Assembly (NCBI GenBank): GCA_028284775.1 | Contig: JANQRB010000042.1 | Location: 1 to 64,000 of the forward strand | Direction: 5' to 3' | Length of the DNA stretch: 64,000 bases | Origin: Candidatus Kapaibacterium sp. | GTDB taxonomy: Bacteria; Bacteroidota; Ignavibacteria; Kapaibacteriales; UBA7675 | In this document: positions 3,024-33,108 of the stretch, one piece after another | How the letters are laid out: every line of letters begins with the position of its first letter | Numbering within the stretch: the stretch's first letter is position 1 | Translations under genes and position numbers: made by a program | The notes under the pieces: model-generated | The model's database searches: none | Seen by the model: the letters and a program-made list of their open reading frames with translations, nothing else | What the model was told of the DNA's origin: nothing

Positions 3024-6000
3024 TCACTCGCTCCGCGGCGTGTAAACGATTGTGGCCAGGTCCAGCATCCGGCCGGGTTTAGCCAGGCGCAGGCTCGTCT
3101 CGTGCAGCGTTTCATCCGGGCCGCCATAATCTCTGAAGATGCGCAGACGCAGTGTGACGGGCCCGGCCATGCGACTTTGACGATTGCTCAGGTATCGTAC
3201 CCTGATTGTATAGCTGCCGGGAAGCGGCCAGGCAAGAAGAAATTCCTCCGGTCCGTAGCCGCCGGCAAAATTCCGCGACAGGCAGCCGCCGAAGCGAGGG
3301 AAGGGGTTGCCGTGATAGGCCAGTTCATTGTTGGGCCCTTCCACCATCAGGTCCAGATCGCAGTTGTCGCTGTCCCAGTCGAGCACGATGCGCAATGGCA
3401 GCGGCGGAGTCTCCAGGCTGGCGGCCTCGATGCCGGGCAGGCTAAGGCCGATATCGGCGCTTGCATCGAGAGCGATCAGTTCACGCAGGGCAATGACCGC
3501 TATGTCGGGAAAACGACGGTCCCAGGATCCGTTGATGACCGAACGCAAGTGATCGGCGGCTTCCCGGTTGCGCCCCTGCTGTTGCAAGGCCAGAGCCAGA
3601 TCACGGTTAGATTGCGGTTCTTCCTCGCGGTTTCGCAGCACATCGCGGAAGATTCCTACCGCTTGCTCCTCGTATCCCCACTCCTGCAAGCGGCGCCCGA
3701 CCATTCGCAACAACTGATGATTTTCCATCTCCAGCTCGAGAATAGAGCTGAGAATTCGCAACGCAAGCTCATGCTCGCCGCGCTCATAAAATATCGCCGA
3801 GGCATCATAATAGAAGTGTGGATCAGAGACATGTTCGGCCCGTTGCCGCAGATAGTTGCGATAGCGTTCCTTTGGGGAATCAGCCGTATGCAAGGTGATT
3901 CCGACCGGCGATTGATGCGCCGCCGGCCTTAAAAAGGTGACCGAAGAATTAAGCGGCAGACAGAAATCATAGCTCGGGCGACTGCTTCTAGCCATCCGCT
4001 CCAGGGCGAGGCGACGATCATAATCTTCGCGCATCCTGAATCTGATAGGAATGCTGATCCAGGAGGCAATCGGCCGGTCATTTTGGATGGCAGGCGTGAA
4101 ACTCGTTGCGTAAACGGCATCGAGCGCCGCCTGGTTCAGAATCGGGCTATCGCTGGTTTCGACCTGAGCGTGAAGGGGACGGCCCCGAGCATCAATCAAC
4201 ACGCGCAGAGTGACGATACCTTCCAGCCCCGCGTACCAAGCCAGTTTGGGATAAACGATGTTGCGCGTCAGTTCGAGTAGGTCAACCTGGGCTTCTCTCT
4301 CGACAGGCACAAATTCGTAGGGATAGGGAATTATTTCTTCTTCAATGGGCGGCACGTTGCTTGGCTCGGAAACTGACGGGAGCATGGTCATTTCTCCCGA
4401 CCAATCTTCAACTGTGTCTTCATTCCCGACTGCAGAGCGTAGGACTTTGTTTGCCACCATGTCTGCCGGCCCGCTTTCATCAGCGCCCTCCGACGCTTGC
4501 CGGACCAATTTCTCACTCGCGGCAAATTCCTTATGCCGATTCTCTTCAGTGGATTGTGACCGAGCGTTTTCGGCCTCCTCCCTGCCGGGACCGGAAGGCT
4601 CCGGGGCGGGTGGCGCCGTTACGCGGGCTGCTTGCTGAAGAGGGGCCGCGGCCCCTTTGGCAGAGCTCAGGGGCGGCGGCGAAGATAAAACAGCGCCGTA
4701 TGTCCGGTGCTGCGTCGCTCGGGCTATACCGGCAATCTCGGGCAACTGTTCAAGGTAGTACTGCTGCAGGCTCCAGGCGCGTAGAAGCTGAGCTCCAAAT
4801 CCCTCGCTTGAGGAATGTCGCCGTTCATCGTGCCGGACGATCTGAGCCAGGTATGCCTCGCGCAGGGCCGGTTCGTCAGCCGGCGGCTCGATTCGGAAGC
4901 GAAGGTAGTCGCGAAGAAATTCCAGCACGATGAGAGAGGTATACGGCGTGACGATGCCGAAGCGGAGGCCAAGCGACGTGATTGCTTCACGATTGCGTTC
5001 CGGGAACAGCTCCAGGGCCGCCAGTTTTTGTTGAGCCCAGATACGCGGCAGCACAGCGCCAAAATTTGTCGAATGACGTCGTTCCAGCAGGATCTGTTCT
5101 TTATGCGAGGTCCGCTTGCCATAGCCGAATCCCAGATGCAATTCGGCCGCTTCAGCAGTCAGCTTGCCCGCCAGGGTGAAATTGCGTTGCAGCGTCAAAC
5201 GACCGGCATACAGCTCGCTCACTTCAGCGCCATCGTATACCATCTTCGTCAGCCGGAAAGGCTCATTGAGAAGTTGCGCTGCAGCTTCGTCGAGATCGAC
5301 CCCGACCAGGTTAAGATAGCGCCCGCCTGTCTGCTGCGCCACGAAACGCAACAATGAGTGATTGGCCATCGGGCTGGAGTTTATGATCATAACGGGCGTC
5401 TCACCCGGCGTAATGCTCTTCTTGCCGATCGTCGCAATTCCGTCGCTGAACAGAAGGACGACATCACAGTCGTCTTTGTTAAGATTCAGCGCGCCGAGAT
5501 TGCTGCCGCCGTCGAGCGGAGTATCCAGCAGCTTTTGTTTAAGCAGACGCCAGTCGCCTTTCCGCACGGGAAACCGCCCGACCGACTCGATATCATTCCG
5601 CAAAAAAAACACGTCAACATCGCAATCCCCAAGTGCAGTCAGATAGCGGTCCAGCAAAGCCAGGTCGCGCCGGCGGTCGCGCTGCCCGGCCGAAAGCGAG
5701 GCGTCCCATACCAGAGATAGGCGCTGCGCCCTTGTTTGCGGACGCGGCTCGAAAGGCGGATACAGATTCAGCCAGAAGTAGCAATCGCCGGCTACTTCTT
5801 CCAGCAGAAGCTGCGGTACATGTTCACTGAAAGGCAGCGCAAAAGCCAGCGCTTCATCCGGCACATAATTGCGAAGCTCGACCGAACCCACATAATTGTC
5901 GTCAGTCCTGCGAAAAAGGAAGTTGCGCAGTTGATTGTCATTCAGCGAAGGAGGAAGATTTTGTTTAAGAACTTCAACACGGACGGAAAAACGCTCGACC

Positions 6001-6590
6001 GGCGCTCCGAACATCAGGGGCAGTAGATAATTCCACCGGTCGGTGGCCGCGCGCAATTCCTGTTCGTAGGCTACGACTATTGTTTTATCTCCGCGGGCCG
6101 GTATGGGAAACACCCGCGCACGAAAGACATTGCCCGCCGTCTTTTCCAGCAGACCGGGATCGACGCCGCGGCGTACGATGGTTTCAAAAGTCTTGCGCCC
6201 TTTGACTTTTTCGACTATAACGCCTTCGCGTATTTTCTTGCCGACGGACATCGCGAAACGCGAGACGGTCTGCCCTTCGCCGAGCGGAAACTGCAGCTCG
6301 CCTTCGAGCACCTGAAGCAGATCATTGTGAAAGACCATCTTCATCGTCGTCGTGGCGAGGTTGCCGACGACCTTAACATCGACATGGAGTTCGCGGAGAC
6401 GGACGCCCTGGTTGGCGGTCTGCCCCGGCAAAGAAAGCTGTGGCATGGGACGCCGCTGGCTGTCAGCTTCCGGAACGAGCTGCGCGTGAAGCCGGCGGAC
6501 TCCCAGCTGCTCCTGTCCGGTATCCGGCAGGGAAATCAATACAACTAAGAGAGCAATGCCAATTTTGCCGGGATAAGTGCGCGCTTTCAT
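3024..6590 (-). CDS. Giant VIT-VWA-TonB_C-TPR-DUF2135 protein, copy 1
   Basis: 1188 residues. An N-terminal hydrophobic stretch (about 9-21) suggests export. A VIT (vault/inter-alpha-trypsin) domain spans about 60-190, with HNDLLQVLEGELQFPLGEGQ and RRGVDPGLLEKTAGNVFRAR. A VWA domain spans about 292-440 with an intact MIDAS DxSxS (DASLS near 297). Residues 600-760 are a Pro/Ala/Glu/Ser-rich low-complexity linker. A TonB C-terminal-like domain follows at about 767-850 (YAGLEGIVTLRVLIDARGR, then FTPAIQNDR). TPR-like helices occupy about 910-1035 and a DUF2135 domain about 1063-1185 (LDWDSDNCDLDL, GGYGPEEFLL). VIT/VWA suggests metal-dependent protein binding; TonB_C normally contacts outer-membrane receptors. 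The protein is probably periplasmic or surface-exposed; no enzyme motif is seen. Copy 2 lies 144 bp upstream on the same strand. Confidence 0.88.
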   Translation of the reverse strand: MKARTYPGKIGIALLVVLISLPDTGQEQLGVRRLHAQLVPEADSQRRPMPQLSLPGQTANQGVRLRELHVDVKVVGNLATTTMKMVFHNDLLQVLEGELQFPLGEGQTVSRFAMSVGKKIREGVIVEKVKGRKTFETIVRRGVDPGLLEKTAGNVFRARVFPIPARGDKTIVVAYEQELRAATDRWNYLLPLMFGAPVERFSVRVEVLKQNLPPSLNDNQLRNFLFRRTDDNYVGSVELRNYVPDEALAFALPFSEHVPQLLLEEVAGDCYFWLNLYPPFEPRPQTRAQRLSLVWDASLSAGQRDRRRDLALLDRYLTALGDCDVDVFFLRNDIESVGRFPVRKGDWRLLKQKLLDTPLDGGSNLGALNLNKDDCDVVLLFSDGIATIGKKSITPGETPVMIINSSPMANHSLLRFVAQQTGGRYLNLVGVDLDEAAAQLLNEPFRLTKMVYDGAEVSELYAGRLTLQRNFTLAGKLTAEAAELHLGFGYGKRTSHKEQILLERRHSTNFGAVLPRIWAQQKLAALELFPERNREAITSLGLRFGIVTPYTSLIVLEFLRDYLRFRIEPPADEPALREAYLAQIVRHDERRHSSSEGFGAQLLRAWSLQQYYLEQLPEIAGIARATQHRTYGAVLSSPPPLSSAKGAAAPLQQAARVTAPPAPEPSGPGREEAENARSQSTEENRHKEFAASEKLVRQASEGADESGPADMVANKVLRSAVGNEDTVEDWSGEMTMLPSVSEPSNVPPIEEEIIPYPYEFVPVEREAQVDLLELTRNIVYPKLAWYAGLEGIVTLRVLIDARGRPLHAQVETSDSPILNQAALDAVYATSFTPAIQNDRPIASWISIPIRFRMREDYDRRLALERMARSSRPSYDFCLPLNSSVTFLRPAAHQSPVGITLHTADSPKERYRNYLRQRAEHVSDPHFYYDASAIFYERGEHELALRILSSILELEMENHQLLRMVGRRLQEWGYEEQAVGIFRDVLRNREEEPQSNRDLALALQQQGRNREAADHLRSVINGSWDRRFPDIAVIALRELIALDASADIGLSLPGIEAASLETPPLPLRIVLDWDSDNCDLDLMVEGPNNELAYHGNPFPRFGGCLSRNFAGGYGPEEFLLAWPLPGSYTIRVRYLSNRQSRMAGPVTLRLRIFRDYGGPDETLHETSLRLAKPGRMLDLATIVYTPRSE

Positions 6591-6734
6591 ATCTCATATC
6601 CGCCTGTTTCTGAAACTGCCTGTTGTTTCAGACTTAGTTCGGAAGATGAGCCGGGATATGGAATAATTTGCCGGCGGGGCGGCCGACGATTCAAGCAAGT
6701 TCTCCCTTAACTCCAATATAGCGCACAGGGCAGC

Positions 6735-9700
6735 TTATTTGTTAACAGGCACAAATACAATATGCGCCAGATCGAGAACCTCATCGACCGCCCCCAGCCG
6801 GACAGTTGTCTCGAACATGTCTTCTTCCTCATGGCCATAGTTGCAAAATATTTGCAGGCGCAGGCTTACCGCACCAGCCACCTTCTGCTGTCGGTTGCCG
6901 TAATAATTAACTTTAATGGAATAGCTGCCGGGCATAGGATGTTTAAGCAAAAACTCTTCCGGACCATAGCCGCCGGTGAAATCGTCGGAGAGGCAACCGC
7001 CGAAACCCGGCTGGCGGTTGCTATAAGAGGCTCTTTCACCGTTGGGTCCGGTGATCCACAAATCCATGTCGCAGTTGTCGGTATCCCAGTCGATGACGAC
7101 CCGCAGCGGAATTGAATCATGCTGCAACAATCGCTGATCTACGTATGACAAATTGAGCCGATCGCCATGTGCCCGGGCAAGCGCGTTAAGTTCGCGCAGC
7201 GCGATCAGGCCGACCTTCGGGAAACGATTATCCCAGTCATCCGTGACCACTCGATACAAGAGACGGGCCGCCTCGCTATATTCACGACGCTGCACGAGCG
7301 CCAGCGCCAGATCGCGGTAAGACTGCGGCTCTTCCTCGCGGATGCGCAGCACCGCCCGAAATATGTACACGGCCAGCTCATGACGCCCCCACTCCTGCAA
7401 CCTGCGCCCCAGCACCCGCAGCAGTTGGTGATTTTCCAACTCGAGCTCGGCAATATTGGACAGAATGCGCAGCGCGTATTTCTCTTCGCCGGCATCCCAA
7501 AACTCAGTCGCGGCATCGAAATAGAACGCCGGATCCTGGCCCCGCTCTTGCTTTTCCTTCAGGTATGAAGCGTAAGCTTCTTCCGGTCCCCCGGCCCGGC
7601 TCAGCAACGACGCCGGCGCTGAGCGCTGCTCCTTAAACCGCAACGTAGCCTCAAGCGTCCCCGCCGCACTGTACACAGGCAGCTGAAACACTTGCCGCCG
7701 GACGGCTTCTTTGTTTGCCTTGTTCATGCTGCTGTCAGCGGGAGTAGCCGAATGTAAACGGAAAAGGATTGGAATGCTGACCCAGCAGGCTACCTTACGC
7801 TGATTCTGAATTGCCGGCGTAAAGATAGACTCTTTAATCGCCTCGATGGCGGGCTCGGAAAATAGCTCATGATCGCTGCTTTCGACCAGGGTACGCCTGA
7901 TCTCGCCATTCCTTCCGATCAGGACTCGCAGGACTACCCGCCCTTCCAGTTTCGCCCGAAGGGCTTCGGCAGGATAGCGGAGTCTTCGCTGCAGATCCAC
8001 CAGGTCGGTAAAGGGTTCGCGGGAGACAGCAATGAATTCGTAGGGATCGGGATATTCCTGCAGGTCAAATTCACTGTTGTCTTCAGCTTCGGCGGGCTCT
8101 GCCGGTGTCGTGCGCGCGATTAGGTCCCTGAAGGTCGCGGCTTCGGCGGGATTCCGGGCAATATCGCCATAGAAGGGCTCGCGCTCGTTATCGATATCGC
8201 CGCGCTCCACGGCTTCGGCTCTGTTGTTATTCCCGCTCACCGGGGAGAAACTCAGCGCAGGCTGCCCAAGATCCATGCTGACTGAGCCTTCACCAAAACC
8301 GGATGACTCGAACTCCTCTACCGAAACGCTAAGGGGCTCGGGCTCCGCTGCGGGCATATTATTGCCCTCTGAATTTCTATCGGCGCTGAACCGGTCATGA
8401 ATTTCGAGCCGGATGACCGTATCCGTCAAATCGCGGATCTGCTCAGCGCTCCTCTCACTTTGATCGCTTCCTTCGACTCCGGCGGATGATTCTTTAGCGG
8501 GCTTTGTCGGCAGCTTCGCAATCCTCGGCCGTCGATCGATACAGGCCTTTCGCTGTTGCCACTCCTGGAATAGTTTATCGAGTCTGAATTTACCATTGTC
8601 CTTACTGTGTGCGCCCTGCTGTTTTTTACGGGCACGGTAGGTCTTGCGCCACTCCGGCTCGTCGGCCAGCGGTTCGATATCATAGCGTATATAATCTTCG
8701 AGCGCATCCAGCACGATCAGTGAGGTGTAGCGCGTGACGATGCCATAGCCCATGCCCAGCTGCGTGATCGCATCCTGAAAGCGCCGGGGCGCCTCTTCCA
8801 GCTTTGCCAGTTTGTTCTGCGCCCAGATGCGCGGTACCATGCCCGACTTCGTTGCATAGCGCTGCCGCTCGATGTTAATTGTCAGCGATTGACTGACCGC
8901 GCCGGCAATGCCGAAGCCCAGCGTCAGCTCGGCCGCATCCGCGTAGAGTTTACCGGCCAGAGCATAGTTGCGGCTGATCGCAATATGCGGACTATAGAGT
9001 TCATCGATTTCGTTGCTGTTGTAAGCCATCGACACCAGTCTGAAAGGCATCGTCGTCATTGCCGAGACGGCTTCCTTAACGGTGAGATCATTGAGGTTGA
9101 GATAACGGCCGTCCGTTGCATGAGCGACAGAACGCAGCAGGGCGTGGTTTGCGATAGGGTTGGAGTTAACAGCCAGCACAGCGCAGGTGCTGAGCGCATA
9201 GCCGTCGCCGCCGAAGTTGGAGAGTCCGTCGGAGCAGAGGATGATTTCGTCGCAGGCATAATCATAGCCGACGAGGTTAATCGCGCTCATGTTGCTGCCG
9301 CCGTCATTGGGCGTATCCTTTAACTTTTGTTTAAGGGCGGGCCAGAGACCGTTCCGCACCTGATAGCGGCCGGCCCGTTCGACAGTGTTGCGCAGAATAA
9401 CAAGATCGACCTCGCAGTCACCGAGAAATTCAAAGTAGCCGTCGATGACCTTCAGCTCCTTCCGTACATCACGCCCGGCAGCGGATGAAGAGGCATCCCA
9501 GAACAAGCCGACTCTGGCGGCTTTACTCCGCGGGCGCCGCTCGACCTCCGGATAGACGTTAAGCCAGAAGTAACTGCCGTCGGGCCCGTCCTCAACAAAG
9601 AGCTGCGGCTTGTGTCGGCTGACCGGCAGGGCGAATGCCAGCGCCTGGTCGGGCAGATAGTCGCTCAGTTGCAGCTCGCCGCGATAGGCATCGGCGTCCT

Positions 9701-10397
9701 TGCGAAACAGGAAGCCCTGAACTTCATTGGCATCCAGCGTCGGCGGCATATCCTGGTTAAACACTTCCACCACGGCGGAAAACTCTTCTACTTCTTCTTT
9801 ATAGGCCAGGGGCAGCATATAGTTCCAGCGGTCGGAACCGGGCAGAAGCTCCTGCTCGTAGGCTACGATAATTGTTTTATCGCCGTTGGCAGGGATGGGG
9901 TACACGCGCGCACGAAAGTTGTTGCCCGCCGTCCATTCCAGCAGACCGGGATCGACGCCGCGCCGCACGATCGATTCGAAGGTCGCGCGGCCTTTGGCTT
10001 TTTCCACCACCACGCCCTCGCGCATTTTATCGCCGATCGACATGGCAAATCGCGACACGGTCTGCCCATCGCCCAGGGGGAAGACGAGCTCGCCTTCCAG
10101 GATGCGATCGAGTCCGTTGTGGAATGTCATGGCCATTGTCGTCGTCGCGATATTGCCGATCACGGCGATGCTGATGTGCAGCTCGCGCAGACGCACGGCC
10201 GCCTGTCCCTCCGGCAAGCCGGGCAGACGCAGCGCCGGCGGACGAGCTTCTTGTGTTAAGGCGTTGGAGACTGGTTCGGCATTCCGGGACTGTTGCTCCG
10301 AAGACCGGTCACTGCCCCACAAAGGCCAGGACAGCGCCAGCGCAACGGCCAGGCCGGGATAGACAAATCGGCTGCGAAACAAACGGCGGATAGACAT
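6735..10397 (-). CDS. Giant VIT-VWA-TonB_C-TPR-DUF2135 protein, copy 2
   Basis: 1220 residues, a full-length paralogue of the downstream copy with identical domain order. It has a basic N-terminus and hydrophobic signal (about 12-27), VIT about 60-190 (FHNGLDRILEGELVFPLGDG), VWA about 285-435 with MIDAS DASSS, a long acidic/Ser-rich linker (about 615-790), TonB_C about 800-885 (LRAKLEGRVVLRVLIGRNGE), TPR-like helices about 945-1070, and C-terminal DUF2135 about 1096-1215 (IDWDTDNCDMDLWITGPNGE). The linker is the least conserved part, while VIT, TonB_C and DUF2135 are near-colinear, which indicates an old tandem duplication. Known bacterial VIT/VWA proteins are cell-surface or secreted; a TonB_C domain placed internally rather than at the C-terminus of a membrane-anchored TonB is unusual. 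A candidate promoter (10490-10500) lies about 100 bp upstream of the start. Confidence 0.88.
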   Translation of the reverse strand: MSIRRLFRSRFVYPGLAVALALSWPLWGSDRSSEQQSRNAEPVSNALTQEARPPALRLPGLPEGQAAVRLRELHISIAVIGNIATTTMAMTFHNGLDRILEGELVFPLGDGQTVSRFAMSIGDKMREGVVVEKAKGRATFESIVRRGVDPGLLEWTAGNNFRARVYPIPANGDKTIIVAYEQELLPGSDRWNYMLPLAYKEEVEEFSAVVEVFNQDMPPTLDANEVQGFLFRKDADAYRGELQLSDYLPDQALAFALPVSRHKPQLFVEDGPDGSYFWLNVYPEVERRPRSKAARVGLFWDASSSAAGRDVRKELKVIDGYFEFLGDCEVDLVILRNTVERAGRYQVRNGLWPALKQKLKDTPNDGGSNMSAINLVGYDYACDEIILCSDGLSNFGGDGYALSTCAVLAVNSNPIANHALLRSVAHATDGRYLNLNDLTVKEAVSAMTTMPFRLVSMAYNSNEIDELYSPHIAISRNYALAGKLYADAAELTLGFGIAGAVSQSLTINIERQRYATKSGMVPRIWAQNKLAKLEEAPRRFQDAITQLGMGYGIVTRYTSLIVLDALEDYIRYDIEPLADEPEWRKTYRARKKQQGAHSKDNGKFRLDKLFQEWQQRKACIDRRPRIAKLPTKPAKESSAGVEGSDQSERSAEQIRDLTDTVIRLEIHDRFSADRNSEGNNMPAAEPEPLSVSVEEFESSGFGEGSVSMDLGQPALSFSPVSGNNNRAEAVERGDIDNEREPFYGDIARNPAEAATFRDLIARTTPAEPAEAEDNSEFDLQEYPDPYEFIAVSREPFTDLVDLQRRLRYPAEALRAKLEGRVVLRVLIGRNGEIRRTLVESSDHELFSEPAIEAIKESIFTPAIQNQRKVACWVSIPILFRLHSATPADSSMNKANKEAVRRQVFQLPVYSAAGTLEATLRFKEQRSAPASLLSRAGGPEEAYASYLKEKQERGQDPAFYFDAATEFWDAGEEKYALRILSNIAELELENHQLLRVLGRRLQEWGRHELAVYIFRAVLRIREEEPQSYRDLALALVQRREYSEAARLLYRVVTDDWDNRFPKVGLIALRELNALARAHGDRLNLSYVDQRLLQHDSIPLRVVIDWDTDNCDMDLWITGPNGERASYSNRQPGFGGCLSDDFTGGYGPEEFLLKHPMPGSYSIKVNYYGNRQQKVAGAVSLRLQIFCNYGHEEEDMFETTVRLGAVDEVLDLAHIVFVPVNK

Positions 10398-17542: not shown

Positions 17543-19294
17543 ATGATCAAGACAAAGATTCCCGCCAGCGACGAAGCGTTAAACCTCAAACGAAAGCTCA
17601 GTTTCGAATTGCGCACAGTTCGGCGAATGGCGTCCGGCGCCGATCCCGCGAAAAGGCTGGCGATTGCCCAACGCTGTCTGGCTGCCGCGCGGCAGGCGGA
17701 AATGCCTGATTTTCAACTGCGCTTCTGCTTTGAATGCGCCAAAGCCTGTCTGCACCTAGGCCGCCCTGAAGTCATGCAGGCCTATCTGGCCGACGCCGGC
17801 GCTATTGCCGGGCAATCGGACGATGCAGAAAATCGCGCGCATTATTGTACCATGATGGGTGCTTTTAACGTGGAAGGCCGGAATCTGCCGCAGGCATTGC
17901 CGCTGTTGCTGCAGGCCCTGGAACTGCTCGATGGCGACAATTGCGATCGCAGCGATCTGGTTCAGGCACTGTTGTCCATGGGCAAACTACATCTCCACCT
18001 TGCCGACCACCGGCAGGCGCTGCCCTACCTGCTGCGTTGCCTGAATATTCAGCGCGAGATCGGTCATCTGGCAGGGCAGGCACCTGTTCAGCAACTTCTG
18101 GGCCGACTTTATGCCGAACTCGACGATAGCGAACGGGCACTGGGCCATTTCACTCTCAGCCTGGAAATCAGTCGAACACTTGACGCCACGCTGGACATCG
18201 CTCTTTCGCTGGACTGCATAGGAGGCCTGCTGAGCCGCATGGGCAAGCCGCAGAACGCTCTCATCTATCTGTTTGAGGCGCAGGAGCTTTATGATCAGTT
18301 GGACAACAGAAAACTCAAGATGCACATAAAGGGTGTTATCGGCGACGCGTATCACTGTATGGGCGAAACGAAGCGCGCGCTGGCGCAGTATGAATCGATG
18401 CTCGCGCAGGGCGCCGACTACCCCGACCTGCAGTGTCAGGCTCTGGCAATGCTGGGACAGGTCCACCAGGAACAGGGGTCCTATGCGCGCTGTATCCGCT
18501 TCTATGAGCAGGCAGTCGATCTCTGCGCGCGTTGGGGCTTCGCAGAGCGCCGGGTGGAGCTGACCGGCAGGCTGGCCGATGTGTTCGCGGAACAGGGCGA
18601 CATAGCACGGGCATTGGAGCATCGCAAACGCAGCATTAAACTCCAACAGGAATTGCTCGACAGTCAGCGTCAGATCCCGGCGTGGGAAAGCGCGACACAG
18701 GAGGCTCGCAATGCCAAGGACGACCCGGGGCCGGAGCTGCGTCAGGCAGCCGAACACTCACTGCAACAGCTCGAAGAACACGAAGCGGCATTGGCTAAAA
18801 CAACTATCGATCTGCTGCAAAAGAACGCAGCGCTGCGTGAGCTGCAGAAAACCGCCCGGCAGTACGCGCGCAAGAGCGATTCGGCACTCAGACAACTGGC
18901 GACGCATGTACTCGAATGTTACAATGAGTGCGAGAGCAGGACAGCAGCGACAGCGACAACAGATGCCGTCATCGCCAGGGCCTATCGCGAATTCACTGCG
19001 CGCCTTAGGGCTGCGGCGCCAGAGCTGACGACGGCCGAGTTACGCGTTTGCCTGCTGATTAAACTCAATCTCTCGATTAAACAAATTGCCGCAACGCTCC
19101 TTTTGTCCACGGAGACTGTTCGCTCTCATCGCAAACAAATTCGTCGCAAGTTGGGCTTGAACGCGGATGCCAATGTCGACTTTTTCATTCGTTCACTGCC
19201 GAAGGGCTACGAGTCTGCTGCACTTTCTGTTAAAAGACCGGGCAATGCCATGGACGAATATCAGGACGATCTCTTCTTGCAGGAGGCGAAATGA
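17543..19294 (+). CDS. TPR-repeat transcriptional regulator with LuxR-type HTH, copy 1
   Basis: 583 residues. The N-terminal two thirds (about 40-385) is an array of TPR-like helical pairs (for example QALPYLLRCLNIQREIGHLA, RALAQYESMLAQG). A coiled-coil-rich linker (about 395-460) follows, then a C-terminal LuxR/GerE-type helix-turn-helix around 500-550 (ELRVCLLIKLNLSIKQIAAT then TETVRSHRKQIRRKL). No signal peptide or membrane helix is present, so this is probably a cytosolic regulator in which TPRs sense a peptide or protein and the HTH binds DNA. A GGAAAA run lies 13 bases before ATG. The stop overlaps the next start in ATGA, implying translational coupling with its paralogue. Targets are unknown. 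Confidence 0.85.
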   Translation: MIKTKIPASDEALNLKRKLSFELRTVRRMASGADPAKRLAIAQRCLAAARQAEMPDFQLRFCFECAKACLHLGRPEVMQAYLADAGAIAGQSDDAENRAHYCTMMGAFNVEGRNLPQALPLLLQALELLDGDNCDRSDLVQALLSMGKLHLHLADHRQALPYLLRCLNIQREIGHLAGQAPVQQLLGRLYAELDDSERALGHFTLSLEISRTLDATLDIALSLDCIGGLLSRMGKPQNALIYLFEAQELYDQLDNRKLKMHIKGVIGDAYHCMGETKRALAQYESMLAQGADYPDLQCQALAMLGQVHQEQGSYARCIRFYEQAVDLCARWGFAERRVELTGRLADVFAEQGDIARALEHRKRSIKLQQELLDSQRQIPAWESATQEARNAKDDPGPELRQAAEHSLQQLEEHEAALAKTTIDLLQKNAALRELQKTARQYARKSDSALRQLATHVLECYNECESRTAATATTDAVIARAYREFTARLRAAAPELTTAELRVCLLIKLNLSIKQIAATLLLSTETVRSHRKQIRRKLGLNADANVDFFIRSLPKGYESAALSVKRPGNAMDEYQDDLFLQEAK

Positions 19295-21021
19295 CCGACG
19301 ACTCAAGTGAGAGGGAACGGCGCTCCGCGCATTCGGATGCAGACATCGATGAGCAGTTCACTGCGATCGAGCCGCAAAAAACTACTGCGATGGACAGGCG
19401 CGAGTATAGCCTGCTTAAACGCGAAGAAGAAATCTACCTGACACTTGCAAGGACAAATCCCGCAGCGGCGCTCGTTGCCCTGGAGGAATGCCTGCGAGAT
19501 GCGGAAGAGAGCGAGCTGCCGGTGCTTCAAATGCGTTTTCTTTTTACATGCGCCGAAATTTGCGATCATCTCGGCGATCACAGCAGCATGGACCGCTACG
19601 CCGCGCGAGCACGCACACTGGGCAGCGGCATTAGACATTCCGGCGCGCGTGCATACTTCTGCACCATGCATGGAACCTATGCGATGGTAAAGGGAAGCCA
19701 CGAAGAGGCGCGCGCGCATTTGCAGGAAGCCATTGTTCGCAAAGAAGAGCTTGGTGAAACGGACTGGGTTCTCAACCAGGCATTGGGGGCTCTAAACAAC
19801 GCGCTGTTTAATTTGGGCGATTATCGGGAAGCGCTGCTGGCGGCGTTGCGCGGCCTCCAGGTCTGTAGCTCGATCGGGCATGTGCGCGGTATCGCGCCAA
19901 TCTGCCAGCAACTTGCCGCGATATACTCCCGCGCACGCTTCTTTCAGGCGGCCGAAGACTTTCTCGCTAGGGGTCTGCAAAGCAGTCGCACAAGCGGTCT
20001 CGTGCTTGAACAGGCGGACATGCTGATTGACTGCGCTGCCATGCATGGGCGCATGGGCCGCCATGACGAGGCGCTGCATTGTCTGTTCGAGGCACGCTCA
20101 ATGTTCGCAGCAATCGGCAACGAGCGCAAACTGTCCGAAACGCTGCTGAGCATCGGCGATCAATTGCTTGGAACCGGCCGCAGGGCCCAGGCGGAACGTT
20201 TCCTTGGCGAGGCCCTGACGATGGCCGAGGATCTTCGTCTTGACCTGATACGCTGTCGCGGGCTGCTGGCTTCGGGTCGCCTGCAAGGTGAACTGGGAGA
20301 ATATACCCGGGCTTCGACCACGCTGCAGCAAGCATTAAAACTGGCCTGCGAAAAAAATTGGCGGTCCGAGTCGCTGGCAGCCCATCGGGAGCTGGCGGTG
20401 CTTGCCGAAGCATTGGAAGAGCCGGAGGCAGCGTACCGACACTACACACAGGTTAACACTCTTCAGACACAACTCCTCTCGCAGGAACAGCAGCAGTCTC
20501 TTGCCGCCATCAGTGTCCAGGACAGCATCAGGGAACAACAGCGGCAGCAAGAGCTGTGGCGAGAGATTAAGCGAAAGGCGCGACAATCCATCGAGAATAT
20601 CGTCGCCAGCTTCCAGGATGCGACACAATTGCTGGATCAGCACAATGAAACATTAATGCTTGTGCGGACAACAGTACAAATTCCTGTTGCTTCCACCGCT
20701 CGTCCCCTCCGGCAGCTGAGAACGCGCATCCAAGAACTCTGCGACACCCAGGGCGAGACCGCCCGTGATACGCGTGTTCAGTCCGAAGCCCGTCAATTGA
20801 GAGAACAGGATTTTGTGGCCTGGCTGCGCCGGGAGGCAGCAGACCTGACTGCGACCGAGTTGCGAGTTTGCCTGTTAATTCGGCAGGGTCACTCGATTAA
20901 TCAAATCGCCGACGCACTATATGTAAGCAGGGAAACGGTCCGCTCGCACCGCAAACACATACGCAAGAAGCTGACGATCGCGCCCGGCGCCGATCTCCAC
21001 GGAGTGTTTATAAGGGTGTAG
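19291..21021 (+). CDS. TPR-repeat transcriptional regulator with LuxR-type HTH, copy 2
   Basis: 576 residues with the same architecture as the preceding gene: an N-terminal charged stretch, about eight TPR-like helical pairs (about 40-380), a linker with coiled-coil propensity, and an HTH at about 525-565 (TELRVCLLIRQGHSINQIAD then RETVRSHRKHIRKKL). The HTH recognition helix SRETVRSHRKHIRKK closely matches copy 1 (STETVRSHRKQIRRK), whereas the TPR parts have diverged, suggesting similar DNA sites but different sensed ligands. The start overlaps the previous stop by 4 nt. The stop codon overlaps the end of the convergent SRPBCC gene by 14 bp (21008-21021). Confidence 0.85.
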   Translation: MTDDSSERERRSAHSDADIDEQFTAIEPQKTTAMDRREYSLLKREEEIYLTLARTNPAAALVALEECLRDAEESELPVLQMRFLFTCAEICDHLGDHSSMDRYAARARTLGSGIRHSGARAYFCTMHGTYAMVKGSHEEARAHLQEAIVRKEELGETDWVLNQALGALNNALFNLGDYREALLAALRGLQVCSSIGHVRGIAPICQQLAAIYSRARFFQAAEDFLARGLQSSRTSGLVLEQADMLIDCAAMHGRMGRHDEALHCLFEARSMFAAIGNERKLSETLLSIGDQLLGTGRRAQAERFLGEALTMAEDLRLDLIRCRGLLASGRLQGELGEYTRASTTLQQALKLACEKNWRSESLAAHRELAVLAEALEEPEAAYRHYTQVNTLQTQLLSQEQQQSLAAISVQDSIREQQRQQELWREIKRKARQSIENIVASFQDATQLLDQHNETLMLVRTTVQIPVASTARPLRQLRTRIQELCDTQGETARDTRVQSEARQLREQDFVAWLRREAADLTATELRVCLLIRQGHSINQIADALYVSRETVRSHRKHIRKKLTIAPGADLHGVFIRV

Positions 21022-27024: not shown

Positions 27025-30018
27025 TCAGTGTCTCCGCAGCATTTTTATTAAAAGCTCTTGCCTCTCGCCACTGACGGGATTCGTCATCGTCAGGCGGCAG
27101 AAGAACAGCTCTGCAGCGATCTGCGCCCTTGGAATACCAGAGCTGGACCAGCGCAAGCTGTGTGAACCGGAAGCGAAGCTTCCTTCGGCGAGTACCGCGA
27201 CAGATCGTCCCAGCAGGTCAAACACCTCGAGACGCACCGAAGCCGACCGTGGCAGGACAAAGCTTAATTCAGTTTCATCGTAGAATGGATTGGGCTTGTT
27301 CTGCGCCAGCCGCAGTTCGGGTACAGGCGGGGGCGGTTCACCTTCGGTACCGTCCGGCACATTGGGGGCGGCGGGACTGCCGCTGTGTCGCGAAACATGC
27401 CAGTTACGTGCCAGACTGTTGTCGCTCAAAGGATCGAGCAGCACCAGCGTTACACCTTTACCATTGGCTTCGGGCGGCCAGGGCCAGGAGTTCCGGTATT
27501 CGACAATGTCCATCAGGTCATTATCAGCATTAAACAATCGTACGGCATCGCCGTCGCTGCCCAGTCCGAAGTCCATGTTGCCTGTAACGTTGACAACAGA
27601 CGGGAAGTGCAATCCGAATCGCTGCAGGTCGCGCGTCACGACCAGGAAACCCTCGCCGGCCACGACGGTGCCTTCCGGAATGACAAACTCGTGCGCGTCG
27701 TCGTCGTCCTTCAGCACCCACCCGCTAAGATCGGCCGGCTCCGTACTCGTATTAAACAGTTCAACCCAGTCGTCGGGGTCGAACTCAGAAGAGGACTTGT
27801 AATTGATTTCGTTAATGACAATTTGCGGGCCTGCAGGACGGAACAAGGCTTTAACGTCAAGCGGACCATTCAACAATACTTCGATCACCTTTGCACTGCC
27901 ATCACCCAATTCGGAGTTCTCCCAGCCGACAAATTCATAGCCGGATGACGGAATGGCCTCGATGCGAAGCGGCACATCGAAAAAGTACTCGCCGACCCAG
28001 GGAAATTTTTCGATTGTGAGCGTCGATACCTTCAGAGAGCCTCCGCCGGCAATGTCAACGTCGAGTGTCAGCGTATCGCTGCCTCCGAGCTCGTACTCAC
28101 GTATTAACTGTTGTCGCAAGGTATCGGGACGATAACTCAAATGCTCAAACATGTAGGCAATCGCAGCGGTGAATTTATTCGACTCGGCATTCCAACGTAT
28201 GATCTCAGCCGGGACCTCTTCCTCGATTCGATTAACAATTTTATCAAGATGCGCCAAAGTCTGCTCGGGATGCAGATATGAGTTAAACATATCGGCGCAA
28301 CGATTAAGGAATGAGTAACGAAAACGCTCATTGCGCAGCATGGTGCCCAGCAGCCAGAAATCATAGGCGACTTCGCGTTCAATCAGCCGCGTCAGATCGT
28401 TGCCTTTGTAGTGATTCCACCAGTCGTAGTCGTAGCCGATCCAGCGCCAGCGGCCGTCGGGTCGGCGGGGACGCCAGTAGCGAATATTCTGATTGTCGCC
28501 TTTGCCCGCATACAATTCGTAAATCCAATAGTCGATAAAGTTAGGCATATCCATCCAGCTCAGTGCGCGCTCATAGTTGCGATCTTCCCTGATGTTCTCA
28601 TCCCGCAGAAAACGCAGCAAAGCTTGGTAGTTGTCGATATCGCCTGTCACGATCTGATGCTGCTGACCATGATTTTTAAGGATATCCACGTCCGTCTGGC
28701 CAAAGTTGCTTTGAACGAAGTCAAGTCCCTTGCGCTCCATTATGTTGTAAATACCCCAGTATTCCCCATTAAGGTAGAGGATGGCGGGACGGTAGGCCTG
28801 CATGTCCACCACGCGGCCGGTGGCCTTATTGACTTCATAAAGCAGTTCGTTCTTCATGCGCCAGCCGCCGCTTTCGAAGGTATCGGCGCGCAGCAGGATT
28901 CCCTCGAAGCTCTCGATATCCTTGTCATCGAAAAAACGATAGTTGATGCGAGGCGTGCCGAACTTGCCGCGTGTCACGACGGTGATGGATTTTTTGTCCC
29001 AACCGCGGCTCCAGCTACCTGCGATTTTAATCCCGGCATCGATTCGCAGCTCCGGCTGACCTTCGGCCGTAAAATATTCAAAGTGCGCCGGGCGCTCCCA
29101 GTCCTGCCAGAAGTTGGAGCCGATATACGGGAAGTTGGTGTCGCCGCGATCACCGCGTACATAGATGCCGCTATCCTGGTCCCACAGGTTTTTCGGATCA
29201 GTGACCAGTGACACGATCGATAGGCTGTGCTTTACTCCGAGAAGATAACTTTGGGTTATGATCGCCCCCGGCAACTGGCCGTCCACGTATGCGCGGGCAC
29301 GCAGGACTTCCTTCCCAGTGATTTCCAGCGCTCCGGTATACGCCAGGCTGTCATGCGGCGTAGGCGTACTTCCGTCGCGGGTGACGAAGATTCGCGCCTC
29401 CGCTTGCGGCGCGGTCAGTTCCACTTTCAGAGGCCCCGGATAAAGGCCGCCGGGCTCCGAGAAAACAACGTCGCCGGTTATCGCGCTGAAACTCGCCCCG
29501 CCATTAGCCTGGGAAGGCGTCGGCGTTGTGAAGAAACGCCAGTCGGGGCCGCCGTCGCTGGAACGACCCAAAGATACGTCCGAACGCTGCCGGCCAAAGC
29601 TGATCGCATCGATCTGCGTCTGACCGTCTCGTTCAGACAGAACGAGCGTCTCGCCGCCGCTGCTCAGCTTCAGTTTAGCGTGGAGCGGACCCTGATCGCT
29701 GGCATCGTCCAGCCAGATTAAGAGATAGCCACGAGGCGGGATTGTCGTGAGGGACGGCGAATCATCCGGGATACGCCATTTTTGCGGCACTGAAATGTCG
29801 TCGCTGAGATACAAGCCGCCGGCATCTTCCGCTAGGTCGCCGGCATTGTACAACTCCACCCAGTCGTCGAATTCGCCCAGCTCATCGGCATTTGTAAGGG
29901 CATTCGAGGCCAGAATCTCGTTGATGAGCAGCGATGAGGCAGGCAGTGCGGCCGCCGGCAGTAGTAGCGCAAGCGTAAGAAATGCAACTAATCGATAGAC
30001 CATTTTAGCAACCTGCAT
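27025..30018 (-). CDS. CotH-kinase / lamin-tail surface protein with T9SS sorting domain, copy 1
   Basis: 997 residues (a second ATG at 30003 would remove five). Signal peptide MVYRLVAFLTLALLLPAAAL; lamin-tail domain (LTD) about 30-165 (INEILASNALTNADELGEFD, DDWVELYNAG); chitobiase C-terminal-like domain about 180-250 (ARIFVTRDGSTPTPHDSLAY). A CotH kinase-like domain follows at about 260-520 (GIKIAGSWSRGWDKKS, RMKNELLYEVNKATG, YLNGEYWGIYNIMERKGLDF, WRWIGYDYDWW). A second LTD spans about 755-880 and a T9SS type A sorting domain the last 90 (KPNPFYDETELSF, VFDLLGRSVAVL). CotH proteins phosphorylate spore coat proteins in Bacillus; here the domain is on an exported surface protein, function unknown. 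A full-length paralogue lies 127 bp upstream. Confidence 0.93.
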   Translation of the reverse strand: MQVAKMVYRLVAFLTLALLLPAAALPASSLLINEILASNALTNADELGEFDDWVELYNAGDLAEDAGGLYLSDDISVPQKWRIPDDSPSLTTIPPRGYLLIWLDDASDQGPLHAKLKLSSGGETLVLSERDGQTQIDAISFGRQRSDVSLGRSSDGGPDWRFFTTPTPSQANGGASFSAITGDVVFSEPGGLYPGPLKVELTAPQAEARIFVTRDGSTPTPHDSLAYTGALEITGKEVLRARAYVDGQLPGAIITQSYLLGVKHSLSIVSLVTDPKNLWDQDSGIYVRGDRGDTNFPYIGSNFWQDWERPAHFEYFTAEGQPELRIDAGIKIAGSWSRGWDKKSITVVTRGKFGTPRINYRFFDDKDIESFEGILLRADTFESGGWRMKNELLYEVNKATGRVVDMQAYRPAILYLNGEYWGIYNIMERKGLDFVQSNFGQTDVDILKNHGQQHQIVTGDIDNYQALLRFLRDENIREDRNYERALSWMDMPNFIDYWIYELYAGKGDNQNIRYWRPRRPDGRWRWIGYDYDWWNHYKGNDLTRLIEREVAYDFWLLGTMLRNERFRYSFLNRCADMFNSYLHPEQTLAHLDKIVNRIEEEVPAEIIRWNAESNKFTAAIAYMFEHLSYRPDTLRQQLIREYELGGSDTLTLDVDIAGGGSLKVSTLTIEKFPWVGEYFFDVPLRIEAIPSSGYEFVGWENSELGDGSAKVIEVLLNGPLDVKALFRPAGPQIVINEINYKSSSEFDPDDWVELFNTSTEPADLSGWVLKDDDDAHEFVIPEGTVVAGEGFLVVTRDLQRFGLHFPSVVNVTGNMDFGLGSDGDAVRLFNADNDLMDIVEYRNSWPWPPEANGKGVTLVLLDPLSDNSLARNWHVSRHSGSPAAPNVPDGTEGEPPPPVPELRLAQNKPNPFYDETELSFVLPRSASVRLEVFDLLGRSVAVLAEGSFASGSHSLRWSSSGIPRAQIAAELFFCRLTMTNPVSGERQELLIKMLRRH

Positions 30019-30144
30019 GCTGAAACATCCTTATGCACGGGGCAGTCAGCTATTGTACCGCGCAGCGAAAAAATACAAGCTTGCGACACACCCAAAATAC
30101 AAAACTATTTCTCTCATCCCGGCCGAGTGCTCAGGGAGCGGGGA

Positions 30145-33108
30145 TCAGGGCAGATACAGCATCTTGCGTATCAAGCTAATGCGCCGGCTCGAGTTGAGAG
30201 GTTCAACAATCAGCCGACAAACATAAAGTCCGGCTGTTTCACCTGATTGCTGCGACGCGGGATTCTGCCAATAGACGCTGTAATTTCCGGCATCCTGCAC
30301 AACCGCCGGCATGGAATCGACGAGTTTGCCGAGTTGATCATAGATGCTGATTGCGACCCGCGCCTGATAGGGAAGCACATATTGCAGTTTCGTGCCGTCT
30401 CGAAAAGGATTCGGACGATTTTGCGCCAGAGCCGGCTCAGGAAAGGCTATATCGGATGCCAGCTGTACCACACGATTGAACTCGCAGGGACTGCCGTAGC
30501 CCTCCGAAACATTCCAGCTCCCGGCCGAGAAATTGTCAAGCGAATGATCGGTCAGAACCAAGGTTGAGCCACTGCCATTAGCTTCTGCGGGCCAGGGTGC
30601 CTTGGAGCTGAACCATAGTTCATCAGCCGGGAGACCGTCGGCCGTGTAAAGGCGCAGAGCATCACCATCGGCGCTCAGACCGAATCCGAGCGAACCCAAT
30701 GCACAATGGGCCTCGGGAAACACTTGTGAAAATCGCTCGAGATCGCGCGCGACCACCACGAAGGAACGGGCAGCAACGATTGTTCCCGGAGGGAAGACGT
30801 ACGCGTTCGCAGCATTGGCATCACGCAAAACCCAGCCCTCGATGTTAAGATCATAATGAGTGGGGTTAATCAATTCGAGCCAATCGCCGGCATCGGCTTC
30901 GGGCGCGGATTTGTAGTTAATCTCGTTAATAATCACATTCCAATCCCGCTCGGAGTCCTGCCTTTCGAACTTGGCTTGCAGCTCGCTGCGCTCGGCGGGA
31001 TCGACAAGTATGCTCCGTGTCGTTCCCAGCGCCGTATCGCTCCAGCCGCTAAAGACGAAGCCCGGATTCGGAATGGCCTCGACCGCAATGGGAACCCCCT
31101 TGAAATAGATGCCGCGCCAGGGAAAATCCTCGATCTCCAGAGTAGAAATTCGTAGGCGGCCGGACTGATGTATGTTAACATCGAAACTGATGCGGTTCGT
31201 ATCGGCCAGATCGAATTCCTCCAGGATATGCCGTCGCACGATAGGCGCTCGCGCTTTGATGAAAGCCTCCATCCAGGCGATGCGTTTGGGGATTTCGGCG
31301 ACGCTGCGATACCAACGTTGCAGGTTACGCGGCATCTCGCTTTCGATGCGCTTAATAATAGCCGTAAGTGTCTGCTGCACTTCCGCCGGAGATAGCACGG
31401 TATTTAACAGGTCGGCAAAACGATTGATAAATGAATTGCGAAACTCATGGCTGTGGAGCATCCGGCCCAGCAGCCAGAGTTTGTGTGCCGAGTCGAGCGC
31501 TGCGATTCGATGCAAGGTGCTGTCTTCTTTATCGGCCCACATATCATGATCGTAGGCAATCCAGCGCCAACGGCCGTCCGCTTGGCGTGGTCGCCAGTAA
31601 CGAATGTTGACGTTATCTACCTTGGCGATAAATATCTCGTAGATCCAGTAGTCGATAAAATTGTCGATGTCGATCCAATCCTGTAGTCGACGATATACAC
31701 TTGACCTGTTAAGATCGTTGGCATTGAGGTAGGCCAGCAGCGCATGATAGTTTTCCGCGTCACCGGCCTTGATATCGCGGAGAGAAGCATTGGACTCGAT
31801 AATATCGACGTCGCGGTAGCCATGATGATTCGCGATGAAATCATTGTCTTTGCGTTCCATCACATTATAGATGCCCCAATACTCGCCGTTGATGTAGAGC
31901 ACGGCAGGCTGATAAGCCTGCATATCGACATGAGCGCCGGCGGCCTTGTTTATCTCGTAGACAAGTTCGTTCTTCATTCGCCAGCCGTTCCAGGCGTCGG
32001 CGCGCAACTGCAGGCCGTCGAAGGTTTCGAGGTCGAGATCTTCGAAGACGGGATAGTTAACATTGGCGGCGCCGTACTTGCTGCGCGTCATAATGGTGAA
32101 GGATTTTTTGGGCCAGGGACGCGTCCAGCCGCCGGAAATCTTAACACCCGCATTCAAACGGAAGCCGGCCCTTCCGCCGTCGGTAAAATATTCCAGATGA
32201 ACGGGACGCTCCCAATCCTGCCAGTAGTTGGCGTTAAAATGAGGGAAGGCAGTGTCCGCATTCGGCCCCAGCACATAGATTCCCGTTTCCCAGTCCCAGA
32301 AATGGCGCGGATCGCCGACCAGCGAGACGATGGGTAAATCGTGGCGCACCTCGAGCAGATAGCTGTGACTGATAACATCGCCCGGCAGCATATCGTCTTC
32401 GATGGCCTGCGCGCGCAGGACAATCGTGGTGTCGGAGTAGAGCGGCCCCGTATAGAGCAGGCTGTCGAGAGCTTTGGGATCGCTGCCGTCGCGGGTGACG
32501 TAGATTCGAGCGCCCGGTGCGGCAGTATGAAGCTCCAGCGTCAGCGGCGTGGAATACAGCCCTCCTAAACGCGAGAATTGCACCTCTCCGCTGATGCCCC
32601 TGTATGTTTTCCCCTGGTTGGCGGCCGAAGGGCTCGCTTGCGCCAGGTAGCGCCATTCGTCACTGCCGTCAAGCACGCGACCGTAGGAAACGTCAACTCG
32701 CTGCTTATCAAAGACAACCCGGTCGAGCAGCATACCTTCGCGATTGTAGAGCGCCAGTTCCTCTCCCGTAGCGCTCAGCTTGAAGCCGGCATGCAGCGGA
32801 CCGCTCGCCGGCTCATCGTCGAGCCATAGCAACAGATAGCCGCCGGCTGCAATGGTACTCAGCGCCGGCGCATCCTCCGGCACCCGCCACTTTAATGGCT
32901 CTTTCGGATCATCGGACAGGTACATGCCCCCGATATCGATCGCCAACTGTCCGGCATTGTACAGCTCAACCCAGTCGTCATAATCGCCCTGCTCATCCGC
33001 CAGGATCGATTCGTTCTGCACCATAATTTCATTGAGGTAAAGCCGGGCTTCGCCACTATGACCCGCTAGCAGCATAAGACCCAGCCAAAGCAAGAAGGCT
33101 TGCCTCAT
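30145..33108 (-). CDS. CotH-kinase / lamin-tail surface protein with T9SS sorting domain, copy 2
   Basis: 987 residues, colinear with the downstream copy. Signal peptide AFLLWLGLMLLAGHSGEA; LTD about 25-155 (GDYDDWVELYNAGQLAID); chitobiase-like domain about 170-245 (ARIYVTRDGSDPKALDSLLY). CotH kinase-like domain about 255-510 (GVKISGGWTRPWPKKSFTIM, RMKNELVYEINKAAGAHVD, YINGEYWGIYNVMERKDNDF, WRWIAYDHDMW). Second LTD about 745-870 (DAGDWLELINPTHYDLNIEG), C-terminal sorting domain (RPNPFRDGTKLQYVLPYQA, IYDQLGKLVDSM). A 12-bp interrupted inverted repeat sits 7-38 nt upstream of ATG. Probably an operon with copy 1. Confidence 0.93.
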   Translation of the reverse strand: MRQAFLLWLGLMLLAGHSGEARLYLNEIMVQNESILADEQGDYDDWVELYNAGQLAIDIGGMYLSDDPKEPLKWRVPEDAPALSTIAAGGYLLLWLDDEPASGPLHAGFKLSATGEELALYNREGMLLDRVVFDKQRVDVSYGRVLDGSDEWRYLAQASPSAANQGKTYRGISGEVQFSRLGGLYSTPLTLELHTAAPGARIYVTRDGSDPKALDSLLYTGPLYSDTTIVLRAQAIEDDMLPGDVISHSYLLEVRHDLPIVSLVGDPRHFWDWETGIYVLGPNADTAFPHFNANYWQDWERPVHLEYFTDGGRAGFRLNAGVKISGGWTRPWPKKSFTIMTRSKYGAANVNYPVFEDLDLETFDGLQLRADAWNGWRMKNELVYEINKAAGAHVDMQAYQPAVLYINGEYWGIYNVMERKDNDFIANHHGYRDVDIIESNASLRDIKAGDAENYHALLAYLNANDLNRSSVYRRLQDWIDIDNFIDYWIYEIFIAKVDNVNIRYWRPRQADGRWRWIAYDHDMWADKEDSTLHRIAALDSAHKLWLLGRMLHSHEFRNSFINRFADLLNTVLSPAEVQQTLTAIIKRIESEMPRNLQRWYRSVAEIPKRIAWMEAFIKARAPIVRRHILEEFDLADTNRISFDVNIHQSGRLRISTLEIEDFPWRGIYFKGVPIAVEAIPNPGFVFSGWSDTALGTTRSILVDPAERSELQAKFERQDSERDWNVIINEINYKSAPEADAGDWLELINPTHYDLNIEGWVLRDANAANAYVFPPGTIVAARSFVVVARDLERFSQVFPEAHCALGSLGFGLSADGDALRLYTADGLPADELWFSSKAPWPAEANGSGSTLVLTDHSLDNFSAGSWNVSEGYGSPCEFNRVVQLASDIAFPEPALAQNRPNPFRDGTKLQYVLPYQARVAISIYDQLGKLVDSMPAVVQDAGNYSVYWQNPASQQSGETAGLYVCRLIVEPLNSSRRISLIRKMLYLP

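Follow-up and report, generated by a model that had tools for sequence, protein, structure and literature searches.

Two tandem genes in a 64,000-nucleotide stretch of Candidatus Kapaibacterium DNA (the whole of which we call the window) encode VIT-VWA proteins that carry a genuine TonB-type C-terminal domain (CTD) at an internal position, between the VWA domain and a TPR-DUF2135 tail. In relatives that have a recognised domain at this position, hereafter the slot, it is usually the receptor half of the Ton interface, and TonB_C is the minority variant. Our results suggest a Bacteroidota-wide family of VIT-VWA-slot-TPR-DUF2135 proteins, apparently undescribed, that is wired into the TonB energy system.

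The preliminary description reported tandem paralogues with the domain order VIT-VWA-TonB_C-TPR-DUF2135, and this arrangement held up: both open reading frames are intact and colinear, are separated by 144 bp, and are 46% identical across their full length (Table 1). Their size, given in its title as "1.2-kb-residue", is correctly about 1.2 thousand residues. VIT, TonB_C (PF03544) and DUF2135 (PF09906) were recovered over the Pfam cut-offs, the last at E 1.3e-8 and 9.1e-13 for copy 1 and copy 2 (35.2 and 48.5 bits, cut-off 22), whereas neither copy matched the Pfam VWA models at E<=1 and the Pfam matches to TPR were sub-threshold only. The intact MIDAS claimed for the VWA domain was confirmed by other means. 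Its DxSxS...D residues are invariant across the family alignment (W295 D296 S298 S300 ... D383), copy 1 having DASLS at residues 296-300 plus D383, and the second MIDAS motif is GGS versus the GGT typical of the family. The AF2 model of copy 1 (mean pLDDT 72.9), in which the VIT, VWA, TonB_C, helical-repeat and beta domains are well modelled, found the VIT-VWA part of human ITIH1 (6fpy) as its best solved match (Foldseek E 9.3e-22, ~580 columns). By fold and residues, rather than by a Pfam VWA match, the proteins have an ITIH-like VIT plus MIDAS-bearing VWA. The TPR-like region of copy 1 was modelled as paired helices in series and is strongly conserved among relatives. Neither window protein carries a T9SS tail, and neither has a plug or a barrel.

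Table 1. Positions of the tandem VIT-VWA-TonB_C-TPR-DUF2135 genes and their parts in the window.
Feature	Residues	Window position	Strand	Length or basis
Copy 1, VIT-VWA-linker-TonB_C-TPR-like-DUF2135 protein		3024..6590	(-)	1188 aa
Copy 1, hydrophobic export/anchor segment	1-30	6501..6590	(-)	sequence
Copy 1, VIT domain	65-175	6066..6398	(-)	Pfam E 1.5e-24
Copy 1, VWA domain	~290-462	5205..5723	(-)	MIDAS residues and Foldseek match to human ITIH1
Copy 1, disordered linker	620-755	4326..4733	(-)	pLDDT below 50
Copy 1, TonB_C	777-852	4035..4262	(-)	Pfam E 2.8e-16
Copy 1, TPR-like helical repeat	895-1045	3456..3908	(-)	model and conservation
Copy 1, DUF2135	1122-1169	3084..3227	(-)	Pfam; core of a beta domain at ~1064-1183
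Copy 2, architecture as copy 1		6735..10397	(-)	1220 aa
Copy 2, VIT domain	70-180	9858..10190	(-)	Pfam E 1.9e-24
Copy 2, VWA domain	~295-467	8997..9515	(-)	alignment to copy 1; MIDAS DASSS from D301
Copy 2, TonB_C	805-881	7755..7985	(-)	Pfam E 6.3e-17
Copy 2, TPR-like helices	~927-1077	7167..7619	(-)	alignment
Copy 2, DUF2135	1154-1201	6795..6938	(-)	Pfam

The window also holds a second tandem pair, of CotH kinase-lamin tail domain proteins (27025-33108 (-), 997 and 987 aa) that also carry chitobiase-type and Fn3-associated domains, as well as tandem overlapping genes for TPR-LuxR-type regulators (17543-21021 (+), 583 and 576 aa).

The internal domain had been called TonB C-terminal-like, and both sequence and fold place it in the TonB family. 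Against the Pfam cut-off of 24.6 bits, TonB_C scored 60.1 bits in copy 1 and 62.2 bits in copy 2. Genome-wide, the window copies were among the top four of eight TonB_C matches, with 67 and 64 bits versus 74 and 64.5 bits for the genome's own TonB proteins; the remaining two of the top four are the adjoining TonB genes of an ExbB–ExbD–ExbD–TonB–TonB cluster, in which the names ExbB and ExbD are our interpretation of the sequences. The copy 2 domain is 54-57% identical to the CTDs of the genome's own TonBs. When compared with solved structures, a profile of the two domains matched exclusively the TonB family (TonB, TonB2, HasB), and the first 14 Foldseek matches of the copy 2 domain model were TonB-family CTDs (TonB, FusB, HasB), FhuA and BtuB complexes among them. 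This model, made from two sequences, is weak (mean pLDDT 55), and the sequence scores were given precedence. In solved complexes, the final strand of TonB pairs with the TonB box; the corresponding strand in the window (ACWVSIPILFRL) nearly matches that of the genome's TonBs (QCWVSIPIKFRL). A degenerate TonB_C was ruled out by scores equal to those of the genome's own TonBs. Unlike the CTD that ends a TonB transducer, the domain is internal in both copies, with TPR and DUF2135 after it.

One alternative is a TonB-like force transducer, in which an uncleaved N-terminal anchor would engage an ExbBD-type motor and pull receptors. We consider this highly improbable. The N-terminal segment is a candidate anchor, with no clear signal peptidase site in residues 1-30 of copy 1 on inspection of the sequence, and a disordered linker of ~135 aa precedes TonB_C. 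However, the SxHxLxS motif, a motor-contact motif on the anchor helix (PMC12204202), is absent from residues 1-30 of copy 1 and from the N-termini of both copies, TonB_C is internal, and the folded VIT-VWA part separates the anchor from the linker. Moreover, many relatives outside the window's taxonomic order have apparently cleavable signal peptides. An uncleaved anchor at the N-terminus could make the topology more TonB-like than we assume. Because they lack a TonB-type ExbB/ExbD-binding anchor, the window proteins would not pull.

Conservation of the domain order elsewhere was to count as support in the preliminary description, and the order was found again in three Flavobacteriaceae-like genomes (L147, L183 and L190; the label "Flavobacteriaceae-like" is our interpretation of the sampled genomes), within a frame that is widespread. 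The TPR–DUF2135 part of the VIT–VWA–TPR–DUF2135 frame was detected in 32/396 genomes sampled across Bacteroidota and in 95/400 genomes of one Flavobacteriaceae-like family, a count that includes shorter DUF2135 proteins. Named relatives are Bacteroidota (Paludibacter, Capnocytophaga and Bacteroidota MAGs); the relatives searched include two further genomes from the family to which the window belongs, and both lack the frame.

What the slot contains is a finding beyond the preliminary description. In relatives, it holds the N-terminal parts of receptors, namely CarboxypepD_reg, a TonB box of the form LxEVVVxGYG and a plug, but no barrel. The CarboxypepD_reg extension has been implicated in receptor–TonB contact (PMC12204202). 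Among 80 members analysed with Pfam as two sets of 40, matches in the first and second set numbered 9 and 33 for CarbopepD_reg_2, 3 and 24 for Plug, and 3 and 2 for TonB_C. No other non-core domain occurred in >2 of the 80 members among the families listed, which are the 25 commonest per set of 40; the remaining listed families were VIT, VWA, TPR, DUF2135 and stray weak matches. In the second set, a VIT match was present in 31 members and a DUF2135 match in 32. A TonB-box-like motif was found in 16 of 51 slots, where shuffles gave 0.5 and never more than 4, and the VIT-VWA parts had none. One member (L143) has a full plug (E 3.5e-18). Plug counts rest on strict E<1e-10 or on Pfam, weak matches having been excluded because our own plug profile was trained on slots including their flanks. 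In a first set of 50 members, roughly half of the slots had no recognisable domain, and these may be plain linkers. By match counts, no genome paired TonB_C copies with plug-type paralogues.

Individual members vary. In a further tandem pair of the family, from Capnocytophaga (L064:9962-15934 (+)), the slot of one copy contains a TonB-box-like motif and that of the other contains none. A 1283-aa member (L204:4931-8782 (-)) has a 603-aa slot with apparently repeated receptor-type pieces (CarboxypepD_reg-like stretches and a plug-like end).

TonB_C joined the frame at least twice, from TonB types of different host lineages. The TonB_C of L147 scored 25.0 bits, just over the Pfam cut-off, and those of L183 and L190 fell under it (19.0 and 21.9 bits); a TonB_C profile with L147 among its sequences recognised them at E 2.1e-13 and 1.4e-8. 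In a tree of the core, these three members are nested in plug-type relatives and the window pair lies with relatives from its own order, so that the starred branches force at least two changes for TonB_C. In a tree of the domain itself, the window and Flavobacteriaceae-like TonB_C sequences are fully separated and the grouping follows host lineage; identity between the Flavobacteriaceae-like domains and the window copies is 20–28%, or 19-29% with own TonBs included. A chance local fusion was ruled out by the presence of the same domain order in three other genomes and by the two or more changes on the core tree.

The plugs appear to have a similar history. The slot module of L044 shares 64% identity with a 1057-aa receptor encoded in the same genome, and 46% with one in the window's genome. 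The plug of L143 reaches 76% identity with a receptor of its host genome and had no match at 1e-15 in the two searched genomes of the window's order. These comparisons point to separate captures of plug modules on more than one occasion.

The main rival to a Ton-docking function is that these are promiscuous, highly mobile exported modules, the slot being a permissive linker and TonB_C binding some other partner or nothing. Its premise is that CarboxypepD_reg, plug and TonB_C rank among the commonest exported domains of Bacteroidota. Within the window's order, TonB_C also occurs in an M56 peptidase and in MORN-repeat/lipoprotein, TPR and VIT-VWA-FKBP proteins, on which ground it may serve protein binding in general; many slots, besides, have no recognised domain, and plugs in the order are often partial. 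We regard this reading as possible, if on the doubtful side. Against it, the recurrent slot domains of the 80 members are, among the families listed, Ton-interface modules alone, other common exported domains being missing; the TonB box and plug on the one hand and TonB_C on the other are opposite sides of a single interface; and the window's TonB_C is not degraded.

Several of the other TonB_C proteins were recorded individually. In the window's genome, the domain is C-terminal in an M56 (BlaR1-type) peptidase (L211:1510-2823 (-)) and in a MORN-repeat putative lipoprotein (L210:1269-2312 (-)). A VIT-VWA-TonB_C-FKBP protein (L207:2147-4825 (-)) has an internal TonB_C with FKBP replacing TPR-DUF2135, and an exported TPR-TonB_C protein (L205:3792-4712 (+)) lies directly downstream of an ExbD-TonB-TonB cluster, with a similar one in L206.

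Gene neighbourhoods gave a different picture from the one that was to count as support, which was of TonB receptors or T9SS genes as neighbours. The window pair is flanked upstream by lon and recQ and downstream by genes for a membrane protein and an oxidoreductase; no receptor, TonB, ExbBD, sigma or T9SS gene adjoins it. Relatives within the order, as the preliminary description had not foreseen, are found in ECF-sigma operons, in which an ECF sigma gene is followed by an anti-sigma-like membrane protein and then, third, by the VIT gene. In the anti-sigma-like partner, a transmembrane segment lies between a cytoplasmic stretch and a T9SS-tail-like domain at the C-terminus. In partners adjoining a sigma gene the transmembrane segment begins near residue 48-59, and partners without a sigma gene have an export signal at the start instead. 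Three sigma/partner loci, all without a VIT gene, are present in the window's genome. TonB_C itself is present in some anti-sigma-like membrane proteins of the order (L208:1979-3985 (+), E 8e-20; L209:394-2331 (-), E 5e-17), after the transmembrane segment and a seemingly disordered linker and before a T9SS-tail-like C-terminus; the L208 gene comes after one for an ECF sigma factor. An anti-sigma factor with a TonB domain would be a new type of surface-signalling part. We also noted in the window's genome an 840-aa open reading frame (L101:5268-7790 (+)) in which an ECF sigma factor is joined to a PPIC-type rotamase and to a T9SS-tail-like end; this end scored below Pfam's cut-off.

These operons could indicate a signalling receptor, that is, a barrel-less counterpart of TonB-dependent cell-surface signalling that serves as envelope sensor of an ECF sigma/anti-sigma pathway, with the window copies acting at a distance on the three sigma/anti-sigma loci. 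The position of the VIT gene after the sigma and anti-sigma-like genes, the difference in partner starts with and without a sigma gene, the TonB_C-bearing anti-sigma-like proteins and the presence of three loci in the window's genome are all consistent with such a role. Nevertheless, the window copies are unlinked to any sigma gene, the linkage does not recur outside the order, where the neighbours checked were mostly housekeeping or unrelated genes, and the function of the partner is read solely from its architecture. We judge a signalling receptor to be quite unlikely.

We tentatively favour, with somewhat less than even confidence, an exported, periplasm-facing, ITIH-like scaffold whose slot would be its Ton-docking position. 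Members with the receptor half (CarboxypepD_reg, TonB box and plug without barrel) would be clients that TonB grips and pulls. The window's TonB_C, on its flexible linker, would, in the manner of TonB itself, capture receptor TonB boxes by strand addition. Without pulling, it would hold the receptors on a scaffold made of a MIDAS-type VWA and a TPR-DUF2135 tail, or report receptor state to these parts. The ECF sigma operons of order relatives and the TonB_C of anti-sigma-like proteins add a link to Ton signalling. The binding partner, the docking and a location in the periplasm are inferred from domain content and slot alternation, as is any consequence for transport, adhesion or signalling. 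The coupling of receptors to a VWA scaffold by TonB_C had been proposed in the preliminary description, and the plug and TonB-box slots of relatives strengthen it; its placement at the outer leaflet is unsupported, since the periplasm is where TonB_C acts and a T9SS tail is absent.

TonB is usually regarded as a motor-linked puller of receptors. A phylum-wide family that offers either half of this interface from an adhesion-type scaffold, beside sigma-factor circuits, would extend the role of the Ton system beyond import. If the slot swap holds, a single scaffold type should have TonB as its partner in some species and receptors in others. A broader version, in which Bacteroidota-wide scaffolds join either side of the TonB-receptor pair through a swappable slot, TonB-type members grip receptors directly, coupling pmf-driven transport to a MIDAS adhesion module, and some lineages feed ECF sigma factors via a TonB-domain anti-sigma, is rather unlikely in its entirety.

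Text searches of open-licence papers found none that links TonB modules to DUF2135 or to VIT proteins. The proteins bear comparison with several known systems. Order relatives share adjacent ECF sigma and anti-sigma genes and Ton-interface modules with FecI/FecR/FecA-type signalling, but they have no barrel receptor, their anti-sigma-like partner has a T9SS-tail-like domain, and at the window there is no linkage. Periplasmic vWA proteins tied to Ton/Tol-type systems have been proposed as force transducers (PMC12204202); in these, an anchored helix and a linker precede a vWA at the C-terminus, and there is no TonB_C (PMC12204202), whereas the window proteins have an N-terminal VWA and do carry TonB_C. 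TonB-dependent receptors of the SusC/CarboxypepD_reg type have N-termini 64% and 76% identical to the slots of two relatives from the same genomes; in the relatives, however, there is no beta-barrel and the plug and TonB box lie inside a scaffold protein, while the window copies hold the TonB side instead of the receptor half. With ITIH1 (6fpy), the window proteins share the VIT-VWA arrangement and MIDAS residues by Foldseek, but they are bacterial, only 14% identical, and have an extra Ton module, TPR and DUF2135. Finally, the window's TonB_C resembles the TonB CTD (PF03544) of E. coli, Helicobacter and others in score, fold and conserved last strand, and differs in being internal, before TPR and DUF2135, on a VIT-VWA protein with no ExbBD-binding anchor.
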